A DNA stretch of 22,983 nt, taken from a virus. This document shows positions 12,933 to 18,167 of the stretch, piece after piece (the stretch's first letter is position 1; each line of letters opens with the position of its first letter). The DNA lies in the IMG/VR virus record IMGVR_UViG_3300038701_000625, positions 1-22,983 of that record; one strand, written 5' to 3'. The translations under genes and the position numbers were made by a program. The notes beneath the pieces are model-generated. The model saw only the letters and a program-made list of their open reading frames with translations. It was not told the DNA's origin and did not search any database.

Positions 12933-14138
12933 TTACGATGCTAAAGTAGTTAACGCAGCACTAATTGAAGTTACTTTTTTCCAAGCTCCTTTGTCAGCGT
13001 TTCTAATTAAGAACAACAATCTTTTACGTACTTTTAAAGTAGTCATATCGGTTGTAAATTGTGCATCAACTGTACCTTGTGATAATGTAATACCAGCTTT
13101 TTCGTAAATTCTTGCAAATCTACTATCTCCTAAAACTAAAGAGTTTGCTGTTAAAATATTACTCTCAATTACAGTAATACCGTCAATAACTTGACCCTCT
13201 CTACTTACAAATGGTGGTATAATATAGTTGTTATTTGCATCTTTTTTCAACTTGTATTTGTTGATGTCAGCGATATTCATAAAAACAACGTTAGGCATAT
13301 ATTTTGAACCTCCAGAAGCTGTAATTGATTCTTTTACTTTTGGTATTAAATCGTAAATAGAAGCATCAGTAATTCCACTAGCAGAAGCAGTATAAGCTGG
13401 TACAGAAGTAACTAAACCTGTTAGGTTGTTACCAGTTCCATCACCGTTAGCAATTTGGTCATCAATTTTTAGATTAACGTTTGTAATTAAGAATTGATTT
13501 AATTCAGCAGCAAACATCGCTTCATCTTCAAAAAATTCCTCAGTAACAGGTAAAGTATCACCTACTTTCTTTAAGTCAATTGTGTAAGTTTTCCATTTCG
13601 CAGTTGATTCAGGAAAAGCAGCACCCTCCGCAATCATTGCAGCAGCTCTAGAACTTGTAGCCTCATCCCAATCGTAATAACGAATAGTACCATTGTGATT
13701 CGAGCCACTTACAGGGAACTTAGGAAAAGCATCATACATTGATAACTTTCTTGTTGCTAATTGTCCTATATCACCTAACTCAACCGCTTGTGCATTATCG
13801 GCTACAGATGCTCTATTTGTAGTCGCTTTAATTTCAATATCGTTAAAAGACGCCCTATTTGCTAAAGACTTAATCTCATGTGATTTTGTTTTAAGTTCAT
13901 CAACTACAGAAACCGTTTTAGTTTGTGCTTGTTTTTCTTTTAGCTTAACGTCTAATTGGTTTGCGTGGTCTTGTAATGCTTTGAATTTTACCTCCATTGC
14001 ATCCGTAGCATCTTTTACAGCGTTTTTAATAGCCGTTTCGTTTTCCGCTTTAAATTCTTTGATTGCATCAACTACAACCTCTTTTGATTTGCCCTCTAAT
14101 TTTGAAGCTAAATCGTTTAATTTTTGTTCTAATTCCAT
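12933..14138 (-). CDS. Major capsid protein (HK97 fold)
   Basis: 401 residues. Residues about 1-90 are a charged coiled coil (LEGKSKEVVVDAIKEFKAEN and following), like the HK97 delta domain that scaffolds prohead assembly and is removed by the protease. No separate scaffold gene is present. The rest has HK97 landmarks: the E-loop/N-arm region SSRAAAMIAEGAAFPES, KKVGDTLPVTEEFFEDE, a GDGTGNNLTGL insertion, VVFMNIADINKYKLKKDANNNYI, VIESNIL...LVLGDSRFARIYEK, and a C-terminal KVRKRLLFLIRNADKGAWKKVT. Cleavage probably falls between about residues 80 and 125. It follows the prohead protease by 6 nt. Confidence 0.92.
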   Translation of the reverse strand: MELEQKLNDLASKLEGKSKEVVVDAIKEFKAENETAIKNAVKDATDAMEVKFKALQDHANQLDVKLKEKQAQTKTVSVVDELKTKSHEIKSLANRASFNDIEIKATTNRASVADNAQAVELGDIGQLATRKLSMYDAFPKFPVSGSNHNGTIRYYDWDEATSSRAAAMIAEGAAFPESTAKWKTYTIDLKKVGDTLPVTEEFFEDEAMFAAELNQFLITNVNLKIDDQIANGDGTGNNLTGLVTSVPAYTASASGITDASIYDLIPKVKESITASGGSKYMPNVVFMNIADINKYKLKKDANNNYIIPPFVSREGQVIDGITVIESNILTANSLVLGDSRFARIYEKAGITLSQGTVDAQFTTDMTTLKVRKRLLFLIRNADKGAWKKVTSISAALTTLAS

Positions 14139-14144
14139 TCTGTG

Positions 14145-14819
14145 TTATAATGTGTTTATAAAGTTATTTAATATTTGTGCATCTTTTTCACTAAAAATCG
14201 GCTGTTCGTTAGAAGTGTTACTTGGTAACGGCTCTTTGTCTGAAAGTGATTTTAATATAGCTTCAATCTGCTTTAATCTTGTATCTGAATAGTCTAAATT
14301 GTAAGACTTTTCGATTAATTCTAATATGCCATAAGTGCTTTTAATTCCTTTAATATCTTGCACCGTGCTTAATTCATTAGCTGCCCAACTCGATAAAAAA
14401 GAGTATTCCATTAGCTTATATTCTGTAATAATACTTTTATTCTTTTGGTCTCTATTTAATACTTGGTAACCTATTGATAGTTCAGCGTTTAAACCCTCTT
14501 CGTGCATTAACTTAATATCGCTAAACATATCCCTTGAAACTTCTTTGTTTAGGTTAAATTTAGTAGTTGTTAGCAAGCCATAAGAATCCTCAGTATCAAT
14601 ATTCAAAGGCACGCCCAAGCTAATTGTAGGGTTGTGGTCTTTAAGCACTCTTATTCTTTTGTAATTCTCCTGAACAGTCTTATTAAAAGAACCTTTTGCG
14701 GAAATATCTCCGTCAGAATCTTTATAGTCATACGCATTGGCATACGCTATAACTATTCCTTTCTTTTCATCTAAATCTTTTAAATCAAAAGACGTTTGTT
14801 TAAATTCCATTCTTTTCAT
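14145..14819 (-). CDS. Prohead protease (HK97 gp4-like, U35)
   Basis: 224 residues. The family core is clear: IAYANAYDYKDSDGDISAKGSF, VLKDHN with catalytic His62, and NAELSIGY with Ser115. The product cleaves the scaffold domain of the capsid protein and itself during head maturation. Start choice: the ATG at 14819 lies exactly 4 nt after a TATATTTG box. A second in-frame ATG three codons later is possible. It has its own copy of the late promoter repeat, and the next gene upstream is on the opposite strand. Confidence 0.9.
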   Translation of the reverse strand: MKRMEFKQTSFDLKDLDEKKGIVIAYANAYDYKDSDGDISAKGSFNKTVQENYKRIRVLKDHNPTISLGVPLNIDTEDSYGLLTTTKFNLNKEVSRDMFSDIKLMHEEGLNAELSIGYQVLNRDQKNKSIITEYKLMEYSFLSSWAANELSTVQDIKGIKSTYGILELIEKSYNLDYSDTRLKQIEAILKSLSDKEPLPSNTSNEQPIFSEKDAQILNNFINTL

Positions 14820-15406: not shown

Positions 15407-16205
15407 ACCGCCCATTCTCATCACGTTTAGGTACTAAATACGTGTTACATCTACAATTAATTACATTGCCAGCACTTCCTTTAGGGTCGCCAGCAAATCT
15501 TAATTCTTCTACACCTCCGAATTTAGTAGGCACGAAAAAGTTTTCGTTTTCCTCTACTTTTACCCCATTCATTGCAAAGTGGTTAAATTCGGCTTTAGGT
15601 GTTCGCCTTGTTCTACTATCTTCGGCACTTAACCACTTCTTTTGCTGTACTATTCCACTTGTTTTAGATACAATAGTAGATGCGTAATTTGCTGCTGCTG
15701 TTGTTTCTGTACGTGCTATTCTTAAAGCCTGCCACCTGTAAAAATTACGTCTATTAATTAACGCCTGCATATCCCTAGCCAATTCAGTAACGGTTTTATT
15801 ATCCGCTATTCCTTGAGCTATAAATTCCTGTAAGTATAAAATAAGCCCTTGCTGAACTGATTGAACCCTACTAAGCGAGTTACTATACAGCCAACTTAAC
15901 AGATTCTTTTCAAACTCGCTTAAAAAAGCATTAACGGTAAACTCTTTTATTTGCTTATTAATTTGCTTGCCTGTTCGTTTACCGTGTATAATGCCTATCT
16001 CTTTATAGAAGTCGTAATACGTGTTTATTATTGGCTCTTCTTTAATTGAGTTTCTTATTAATACATTATAGTTAGCCTCGTTTAAGTAGTCAAACGGTAT
16101 TCTATTAGATAACTCTCTAAAAGTCTTCACTAATTGTTTGTAGCTTATACGCTCGTAACCTAAATGCCATTTTAGCCACTGCCTACGTAATTGGTCTTCT
16201 GTCAT
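15393..16205 (-). CDS. Minor head protein, Mu gpF / SPP1 gp7-like
   Basis: 270 residues. The C-terminal half has the Mu-F domain: RWQALRIARTETTAAANYAS, KKWLSAEDSRTRRTPKAEFN with HFAMNG, and GDPKGSAGNVINCRCNTYLV with paired Cys. This protein binds the portal and helps DNA ejection or head morphogenesis. The N-terminal half is helical. It normally follows the portal directly, but here an HNH gene is inserted between them and overlaps its first 23 nt. It keeps its own ATG at 16205. Confidence 0.88.
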   Translation of the reverse strand: MTEDQLRRQWLKWHLGYERISYKQLVKTFRELSNRIPFDYLNEANYNVLIRNSIKEEPIINTYYDFYKEIGIIHGKRTGKQINKQIKEFTVNAFLSEFEKNLLSWLYSNSLSRVQSVQQGLILYLQEFIAQGIADNKTVTELARDMQALINRRNFYRWQALRIARTETTAAANYASTIVSKTSGIVQQKKWLSAEDSRTRRTPKAEFNHFAMNGVKVEENENFFVPTKFGGVEELRFAGDPKGSAGNVINCRCNTYLVPKRDENGRFIRR

Positions 16206-16683
16206 TATTTATTTCTTTTAATGCTTTTTGATATGCTAAATGCGCATCATACTCTTTTTTAAAGTTACCTAAATATTTTACAACTCCATTTGTTTTTATA
16301 GATGACTGCCATTTATTTCTGTTTTTTCTCCAAGTTACCCCTGTGTATTTAGAATAGCATCCTTTTTTATCTTTGCTTGAGTTTTCTCGATGAGTTATTA
16401 TTTGTAAGTTACTTAACTTATTATTTAATTTATTATTATCTATATGGTCAATCACTAAAGTATGATTTTTAGGTTTGTGATTTAAAAATGTCATAGCTAC
16501 AAGTTTATGTATATAGTATGTTTTTCTATTTCCGTTTTTATTTAGTGAAACTGTTAAATATCTACCTTTTGATAAACCTCCTTTTAATATTTTCTCATAA
16601 CCAAATTTTAAACTCTTAACATTCCCTAAATTACTAACTTGATAAATACCCTCATAATTAGGGATGTATTTATATGTTTCCAT
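16183..16683 (-). CDS. NUMOD4-HNH-AP2 homing-type endonuclease 2
   Basis: 166 residues. NUMOD4 is at about 5-60 (IPNYEGIYQVSNLGNVKSL). The HNH_3 core is at 76-103 (VIDHIDNNKLNN with His80, THREN with His98), with the canonical DH and H that the paralogue at 340-822 lacks. The AP2-like domain is at about 111-157 (SKYTGVTWRKNRNKW to EYDAHLAYQKALKE). The last nine residues are encoded by sequence that is also the start of the Mu-F gene. It sits between portal and Mu-F, a typical free-standing homing position, and has a structured leader. Confidence 0.92.
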   Translation of the reverse strand: METYKYIPNYEGIYQVSNLGNVKSLKFGYEKILKGGLSKGRYLTVSLNKNGNRKTYYIHKLVAMTFLNHKPKNHTLVIDHIDNNKLNNKLSNLQIITHRENSSKDKKGCYSKYTGVTWRKNRNKWQSSIKTNGVVKYLGNFKKEYDAHLAYQKALKEINNDRRPIT

Positions 16684-16694
16684 TAATTAAAAAA

Positions 16695-16764
16695 CCTATA
16701 TCTTCAAAGGTAGTGGGCTTATCAGATATAGGAATTTATAAATATTTTTTATTATAGCCACTAC
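16695..16764 (-). ncRNA. Predicted pseudoknot leader of HNH gene 2
   Basis: On the minus strand, GTAGTGG (16764-16758) pairs with CCACTAC (16716-16710). CCTATATC (16732-16725), inside that loop, pairs with GATATAGG (16702-16695). The segments interleave, giving a pseudoknot. The 24-nt first loop contains a short hairpin ATAAA/TTTAT (16752-16748 with 16742-16738). A T6 run and the start codon follow 11 nt after the last strand. Hence the second helix alone would look like a terminator with a large loop. Topology and loop lengths match the leader at 829-914, although the stems differ in sequence. Confidence 0.52.
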
Positions 16765-16773
16765 ACTACAAGA

Positions 16774-16787
16774 GCAAATATACGAAA
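16774..16787 (-). promoter_or_regulatory. Shared 14-nt motif with -7 box before HNH leader 2
   Basis: TTTCGTATATTTGC starts immediately after the portal stop and includes a perfect -7 box TATATTTG. It matches 13 of 14 bases of the motif at 916-929. No -33 TTTG is visible. A transcript from here would begin at the pseudoknot. Confidence 0.45.
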
Positions 16788-18167
16788 TTATAAATTAACA
16801 TCATCGTTAGGCAACATAGCCTGTTCTAAAGTCATAACATCATTTTTTACCGTATATTGGTCTAACAAAGGCTCGTTATCTTCGGGAAGTCTTAACATGT
16901 GCCTTGCAGTACGTCTATTAATTATTCCCCTATCTACATTTTCCCCAATCCATTTAGACAAAGTTTCTAAGTCATCCTGCATCTCAGGTAGTTCCTTGTA
17001 GTCAAAGATTAAAGCTCTACCTTTATAAGCTTTTATTTCAGCTAAAACACCCTCGTTAAAAGCACGTTCTATAATCTTAGCATCTGGCACAATACTATTC
17101 GTTAAAACTCTTTTTAACTCGCTTATTTGCTTATCATACTTACCACCATCATCATTATTAAGTAAAGTGTCAGACCACCCTAACGCATTACATATTTGTT
17201 TCTGGTCGTATTTTAAATGTTCAAAGGTTTTTAATTCATCTGTTGTTAGTGAAATTCTAGTGAAACCCATATCAAAAGAACTACCCATTATATTAGACAA
17301 CTCTTCTTTACTGTTTTTAGCTTTTAACAACCTATCTTTTATACCTTGACTTTGTTCGGGGTTAAAATCGTGTGACTTGCCATGAATAAAACCAAAAACA
17401 CCAGCATTACGCAACATTTCAAGATTTAACTCTTTAGCTTTGTTAATTGATAATACATTGCTCCATACCGCTCTTAATCTACTTTGCCCATATAATTGCT
17501 CACCATTTAACCCAAAGTTAGGATTGTCTATTCCAATATGTACAATTTCATCTACTTCAAATCGTATTAATTTATTATACATATCTAGTTCGTAATAATC
17601 AATCGGATTTTCAATACCAATTAAACCACTATCTTGCTTGACATGTATTTTAACGTAATTAGATGGCAATAAATATAATGCAATCGGTTCACCAGCGTTC
17701 ATACCAGCTTCAGGCTTTTGCTTATACCAATAAAAGTTCCCTGTTAAGTCTAAAAAAGCTTCAGTAAGTTTAAAAAACTCGTTCCAATCTTGGTTCGGGT
17801 TTGGCTTTTCAAAAGGCATAGGATATTCTGAGTCGCTTAACCCCTTACTTTCATATTCGGCTAATCTTAGCTTTTGAGTAACACTTGGATTGTAATTTAC
17901 AGCTTTTAATAAGTTACTAGCCTTTCTATGTGATTCACTATCTTTTATATCTTTAATGTAGTAAGGTATTGAAACCAATTTACTAGATTTCTGATTAATA
18001 ATACTAAACACATCCGCATTTATATTATAACCATCTTTTATATACTTTGTTAAGTCGTTATCGTCGTTATTGGTAAACTCACCAAACCCAAACAAAGACA
18101 TATTATATTTATTCTGCTGTTGTTTATTATTTCTAAAGAAATTAACAGCATCTTGCCAAATACCCAT
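16788..18167 (-). CDS. Portal protein (HK97-type)
   Basis: 459 residues. Typical segments are NINADVFSIINQKSSKLVSIPYYI at the N-terminus, then LTEAFLDLTGNFYWYKQ, ALYLLPSNYVKI and VDEIVHIGIDNPN. The helical stem and crown region follows (LNLEMLRNAGVFGFIHG; LKYDQKQICNALGWSDTLLNND; KRVLTNSIVPDAKIIERAFNE). Twelve copies form the vertex through which DNA is packaged and ejected, and the terminase docks on it. Order terminase-portal-Mu-F is canonical except for the inserted HNH gene. Confidence 0.92.
   Translation of the reverse strand: MGIWQDAVNFFRNNKQQQNKYNMSLFGFGEFTNNDDNDLTKYIKDGYNINADVFSIINQKSSKLVSIPYYIKDIKDSESHRKASNLLKAVNYNPSVTQKLRLAEYESKGLSDSEYPMPFEKPNPNQDWNEFFKLTEAFLDLTGNFYWYKQKPEAGMNAGEPIALYLLPSNYVKIHVKQDSGLIGIENPIDYYELDMYNKLIRFEVDEIVHIGIDNPNFGLNGEQLYGQSRLRAVWSNVLSINKAKELNLEMLRNAGVFGFIHGKSHDFNPEQSQGIKDRLLKAKNSKEELSNIMGSSFDMGFTRISLTTDELKTFEHLKYDQKQICNALGWSDTLLNNDDGGKYDKQISELKRVLTNSIVPDAKIIERAFNEGVLAEIKAYKGRALIFDYKELPEMQDDLETLSKWIGENVDRGIINRRTARHMLRLPEDNEPLLDQYTVKNDVMTLEQAMLPNDDVNL

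Follow-up and report, generated by a model that had tools for sequence, protein, structure and literature searches.

In pT181-type plasmid attenuators, an intrinsic terminator is coupled to loop–loop pairing with a second molecule, an antisense RNA. The IncI/IncB repZ activator pseudoknot, in which a loop pairs near the start region, belongs to plasmid replication, is antisense-controlled and has no U-tract. In the cobalamin riboswitch a kissing loop joins the sensor domain to the regulatory hairpin, and type III toxin–antitoxin systems (ToxIN) consist of a promoter, a pseudoknotted RNA, a terminator and then the gene for the protein, a toxin. In T-even leaders, RNA structure lies immediately before homing endonuclease genes (I-TevI, segB and Aeh1 mobE, and the seg43(25) hairpin), and these hairpins for the most part occlude the ribosome binding site of longer transcripts, and the late transcript lacks them (PMC2988022).

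Here we describe a structured RNA leader before an HNH gene of a Bacteroidetes phage (IMG/VR virus record IMGVR_UViG_3300038701_000625; the window is this whole record of 22,983 bases), which is probably a conserved control switch. The T4-type endonuclease leaders are the functionally closest published case, as there too the structure precedes free-standing or intron homing endonuclease genes and is thought to limit their expression (PMC2988022). Their structure differs, however: the window leader starts at its promoter, contains a kissing pair and a U-tract, and is of a kind common to several gene families. With pT181 it shares loop–loop pairing in a leader with a terminator (here a terminator-like hairpin), but both loops are in one RNA, and inspection identified no antisense gene. 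The repZ pseudoknot resembles the related type 2 leaders, described below, more than the class I to which the window leader belongs. Unlike the cobalamin riboswitch, the window leader has no large aptamer domain and no Rfam riboswitch match, and unlike type III toxin–antitoxin loci it is a single unit followed by a NUMOD4-HNH protein, with no endoribonuclease toxin.

Rfam covariance models gave no gathering-score match in the window or in 19 related loci, and nothing meaningful in the leader region at E values up to 10. HDV-like, twister, pistol, hammerhead and riboswitch families were rejected for lack of any such match, and a HEARO/omega RNA because of the protein, a NUMOD4-HNH-AP2 without RuvC. 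The topology is similar to that of a group I intron P3/P7 core, but on inspection the motif is not conserved in relatives and P4–P6 are absent. The leader is undescribed in the literature searched, and the 2010 motif survey has none alike, which does not fully exclude an earlier description.

Promoter and architecture of the leader

The leader lies in a gap of 104 nt that separates the stop of the portal gene at 16788 from the ATG of the HNH gene at 16683–16681, on the minus strand, where the head genes of the window also lie (Table 1). Within this gap is a promoter box that was absent from the first-pass annotation. In F. johnsoniae promoters the G occupies −5 and transcription starts 4–5 nt past the element (PMC6847099); applied to the spacing of the box, this rule would place the RNA start at the base of hairpin A. 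TAnnTTTG itself was a requirement of the box search in class I leaders, of which only four in 84 have no such box; the base that follows is C or T in 99% (logo of 73 class I boxes), and of the 80 leaders that have a box, 69 place it 5 nt from stem A.

Table 1. Positions of the leader, cassette and related features in the window
Feature	Position	Strand	Basis
Promoter: Bacteroidetes −7 element TATATTTG, then C; RNA start predicted at 16770 or 16769	16775–16782	−	exact TAnnTTTG-Y
Hairpin A, RNA 5′ end: stem TTGTAG (16771–16766)/CTATAA (16757–16752), core GTAG/CTAT, 8-nt loop TGTAGTGG	16752–16771	−	core pairs covary 4/4, 97% paired (19-leader alignment)
Helix H1, 5′ strand GTAGTGG, in hairpin A loop	16758–16764	−	both-side changes in 6/7 pairs, 97% paired (19-leader alignment)
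A/U-rich linker ending AAATT	16733–16751	−	19–23 nt and A-rich throughout in 84 class I leaders
Helix H2, 5′ strand CCTATATCT, hairpin B base	16724–16732	−	counted pairs covarying 8/8 (19-leader alignment); own strands pair in 83/84
Hairpin B apex: GAU/UGA internal loop, inner stem, 8-nt loop CCCACTAC	16704–16723	−	inner stem 100% paired (19-leader alignment)
Helix H1, 3′ strand CCACTAC, in hairpin B loop	16710–16716	−	covariation; exact complementarity in motif-selected leaders
Helix H2, 3′ strand AGATATAGG	16695–16703	−	covariation
U-tract T6 directly past H2, terminator-like	16689–16694	−	at least 4 T there in 68/69 scored leaders
Free-standing homing-type endonuclease gene, predicted	16183–16683	−	Pfam: NUMOD4, HNH_3, AP2-like (AP2 below cut-off)
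Inserted cassette: promoter, leader and most of HNH gene, portal stop to next head gene	16206–16787	−	empty sites in relatives
Type 2 leader before the other HNH gene (ATG 822), related but different	829–923	−	11-leader alignment, complementary strands changing, read by eye

The two interleaved helices that the first-pass annotation had read from the DNA are exact: helix 1 (H1) joins GTAGTGG at 16764–16758 to CCACTAC at 16716–16710 over 7 bp, and helix 2 (H2) joins CCTATATC at 16732–16725 to GATATAGG at 16702–16695, with an extension to 9 bp available (16732–16724 with 16703–16695). Its T6 after helix 2, followed by the ATG, is equally correct. The 5-bp hairpin that it placed in the first loop (TATAA/TTATA, all A-T) lacks conservation and would compete with stem A, which is conserved and closes the loop that carries the 5′ strand of H1. 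Hairpin B contains an inner stem (AAG/CTT, 16720–16718 with 16709–16707) and a GAU/UGA-type internal loop, in which tandem sheared G·A pairs may possibly form, and when it was folded alone with RNAfold an 8-nt apical loop appeared in most aligned members. Given this inner stem and internal loop, the H1 contact is a loop–loop kissing interaction, and the architecture is richer than an H-type pseudoknot, with seven bases of loop A pairing with the 8-nt loop of hairpin B. Single-sequence folding of the window leader was by itself no more than mildly unusual (z −1.8). The window AUG lies 11 nt past the 3′ strand of H2, a spacing of 10–12 nt in most class I leaders.

A covarying leader family in Bacteroidetes phages

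The same architecture, built from other helix sequences, lies upstream of many relatives of the HNH protein in IMG/VR; two of them (L005 and L009) have GTCGTCG/CGACGAC and CCACCA/TGGTGG in place of the helices GTAGTGG/CCACTAC and CCTATATC/GATATAGG of the window. When 19 class I leaders were aligned with MAFFT, both sides had changed in 20 of 22 pairs and 95.2% of cells were paired (68% in shuffles). Covariation scored 0.699, compared with 0.167 for shuffled alignments and 0.059–0.131 for slid partners. Covariation thus supports all helices, as in a conserved structured RNA family, and covariation in related phages, the test set beforehand for this leader, is borne out by these 19. In class II leaders, which were found by a different motif, H1 is 100% paired with both-side changes in six of eight pairs.

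Chance matches were assessed with two scans. A descriptor of two interleaved helices and a U-tract, at a cut-off of 26 (the window scores 29), produced 42 distinct matches among the retrieved loci; 660 kb of reversed sequence yielded none. The other scan, which used only the promoter box as its anchor and had no U-tract filter, gave 85 matches, of which about 50 were convincing in U-tract, spacing and flanking stem (50 kept), against 28 matches in the control, four of them with a U-tract; despite the absence of any such filter, nearly all of the best matches have one. Where HNH loci were chosen by protein only, a promoter-anchored pseudoknot lay upstream in 28 of 72, compared with three of 288 random windows.

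For a non-circular test, IMG/VR was scanned with a 23-nt motif that covers only the apex of hairpin B and excludes stem A, H2 and the U-tract. The 106 stretches found represent 86 distinct class I leaders, and an exact upstream complement for H1 is present in 84 of the 85 that were parsed. H2 has 7–8 bp in 69 of the 85, and its strands pair in 83 of 84 when a shorter, six-pair H2 is counted. With U-tracts scored only behind an H2 of 7–8 bp, leaving out 16 leaders in which it is shorter, 68 of 69 have 4–9 T directly past H2 (most have 4–6) and one has none. The leaders therefore show the layout of an intrinsic terminator: a GC-based hairpin with a direct U-tract, between promoter and gene. Two other patterns, a tighter one for class I and one for class II, had no matches in IMG/VR and were replaced.

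Elements also occur in cultured Flavobacterium and Polaribacter phages. Hemulen6-1 (MN812208) carries one of class I at 13744 before an endonuclease gene and another at 14782 before gp040, P12002S and P12002L each have one before a primosomal/replication gene, and FCV-1 has elements at 35886 and at 40372, the latter before a NUMOD4-type gene. Half a crAss-like phage and 50 kb of Cellulophaga phage phi38:1 yielded none. A host-derived leader is rejected, within the limited power of the searches of bacterial chromosomes: there was none in 80 bacterial-genome HNH loci, none by model in 299 Flavobacteriaceae genomes (a weak search, with 15 candidates scored per genome), and BLAST against 397 genomes returned short AT-rich pieces only. 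The result is an RNA family proven by covariation and missing from Rfam, with a fixed geometry to promoter and start codon, that occurs in cultured phages and, among uncultured viruses, in at least 86 distinct sequences.

The inserted cassette and the genes behind class I leaders

In four portal relatives (L355, L358, L360 and L368) portal gene and next head gene directly adjoin, and it is exactly at this junction that the window has its promoter, leader and HNH gene. The leader is therefore part of the mobile cassette, and these relatives without the insert support the proposal of a selfish HNH gene that entered the head operon. An HNH/NUMOD gene that lies between two conserved genes and is missing there in relatives is what is expected of a free-standing homing endonuclease gene, as far as sequence can tell. 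Four further relatives (L353, L354, L356 and L357) have unrelated small ORFs at the same place, and the portal/head-gene junction is, on these comparisons, an insertion hotspot.

The genes downstream of class I leaders could be read in 81 cases. By profile, 41 are NUMOD4/HNH relatives; about 12 are GIY-YIG or T5orf172, judged from the start of the sequence with two checked against Pfam; about 17 belong to one 79-aa family with no Pfam or PHROGs match; and others are endonuclease VII-like or HNH (L262, L275 and L301). The 79-aa family (MNTISVQGFKIDINHF...) follows a class I leader repeatedly (L225, L230, L231, L239, L261 and others). Other leader classes precede small ORFs and DEAD/SNF2 helicase, DUF6291 and replication-type genes. 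As mobile endonuclease genes of different families share a control RNA, the limitation of selfish-gene cost becomes testable outside the T4 model. The leader could even be a portable regulatory RNA module, acquired independently by unrelated selfish endonuclease families, whose kissing would also be intermolecular, so that the leaders of co-infecting phages would respond to gene copy number and turn endonuclease expression on or off; we regard this as a long shot.

Possible functions of the leader

The first proposal, that the HNH gene is preceded by a structured leader containing a terminator-like hairpin, is strongly supported, and this leader is conserved in related phages. The accompanying idea that the RNA chooses between pseudoknot and premature termination is unlikely: since helix 2 belongs to both, the two are compatible and there is no either/or; a plausible choice would be whether helix 2 forms together with the kissing helix or on its own. 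By inspection, no mutually exclusive antiterminator was seen in class I. As for an attenuator of a selfish gene, the leader does precede the HNH gene, but its class is not specific to that gene, being found also before GIY-YIG, endonuclease VII-like and 79-aa family genes, with sister classes before replication genes.

We tentatively favour, at slightly less than an even chance, a promoter-coupled kissing-loop attenuator that limits the expression of accessory phage genes, because both class I and the promoter-anchored matches conserve the signature of intrinsic terminators, a U-tract directly past a GC-based stem. In this model, transcription would start at the base of hairpin A, and as loop B emerges seven bases would pair with loop A to form the kissing helix; the terminator-like H2 would then close just before the U-tract, 11 nt ahead of the start codon. 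The kissing complex would set the frequency at which RNA polymerase stops at the U-tract, only a fraction of transcripts would reach the endonuclease gene, and the accessory gene would be kept low or conditional in any operon of insertion. We infer termination, its modulation by kissing, the direction of the effect and any trigger alike. Intrinsic termination may be weak, as stem H2 (6–9 bp plus the internal loop) is worth about −9 to −14 kcal/mol. A simple terminator scan did not call hairpin B of the window, because its loop limit was 8 nt. In Bacteroidetes, where known regulatory parts are few, the leader would provide a kissing-loop switch that is both natural and compact.

The near-constant AUG spacing of class I fits a translational role too, and it is conceivable, although we consider it unlikely, that a fold ending 11 nt before the AUG sets ribosome access in a group without Shine-Dalgarno sequences, with the kissing loop or a partner near the AUG switching initiation. 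RNA structure near the start codon does tune translation in F. johnsoniae (PMC6847099), and the type 2 leader of the window, before an HNH gene whose product is 53% identical to that of the first, points to translation and away from attenuation. It contains TATATTAG at 923–916 and has an outer stem (TTGAGGA 913–907 with TCCTCAA 861–855, minus strand) and a loop, GCGTTTA at 873–867, that is complementary to two copies of TAAACGC at 848–842 and 835–829. Type 2 leaders have no U-tract, and the second loop-complementary copy adjoins the AUG. In five leaders of other classes (L003, L045, L046, L051 and L065) a further copy of the loop A sequence lies immediately ahead of the ATG, so that loop B could pair with either copy, but the number of such repeats near the AUG is only weakly above permutation (six against a mean of 2.1 and a maximum of 7). 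Against the translational reading, class I, the window included, has no second loop-complementary copy near the AUG, and neither a GC stem base nor a U-tract would be necessary for such a role. It is possible that one sensor-like fold has been given transcriptional or translational outputs.

The conserved U-tract ahead of the gene, together with the leader's own promoter and compact 5′-terminal fold, would also suit a terminated 5′ RNA of about 80–90 nt that is itself the product, a trans-acting small RNA, with the gene expressed by read-through, in an order of elements like that of type III toxin–antitoxin loci. The same leader class precedes unrelated genes, as this would allow, but there are no tandem repeats, toxin or identified target and loops differ among elements of one phage, and we judge such a product rather improbable. 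Stem A is predicted to start with the first or second nucleotide of the transcript, which is consistent with a terminal hairpin and kissing fold that protect short phage mRNAs from 5′-dependent decay; this stabiliser has a small chance of being the explanation, as any stable hairpin would serve and both the GC base with U-tract and the loop–loop complementarity would go unexplained. Least probable is an autoregulatory binding site for the endonuclease encoded downstream. T4 I-TevI and related enzymes do regulate their own expression, though on DNA operators (PMC2988022), but this leader stands before NUMOD4-HNH, GIY-YIG, T5orf172 and endonuclease VII-like genes and that of the 79-aa protein, which are unlikely to share an RNA-binding surface.

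Several phages (L109, L113, L115, L118 and L121) carry two or three leaders each, with loop sequences that differ from one another as if avoiding cross-pairing.
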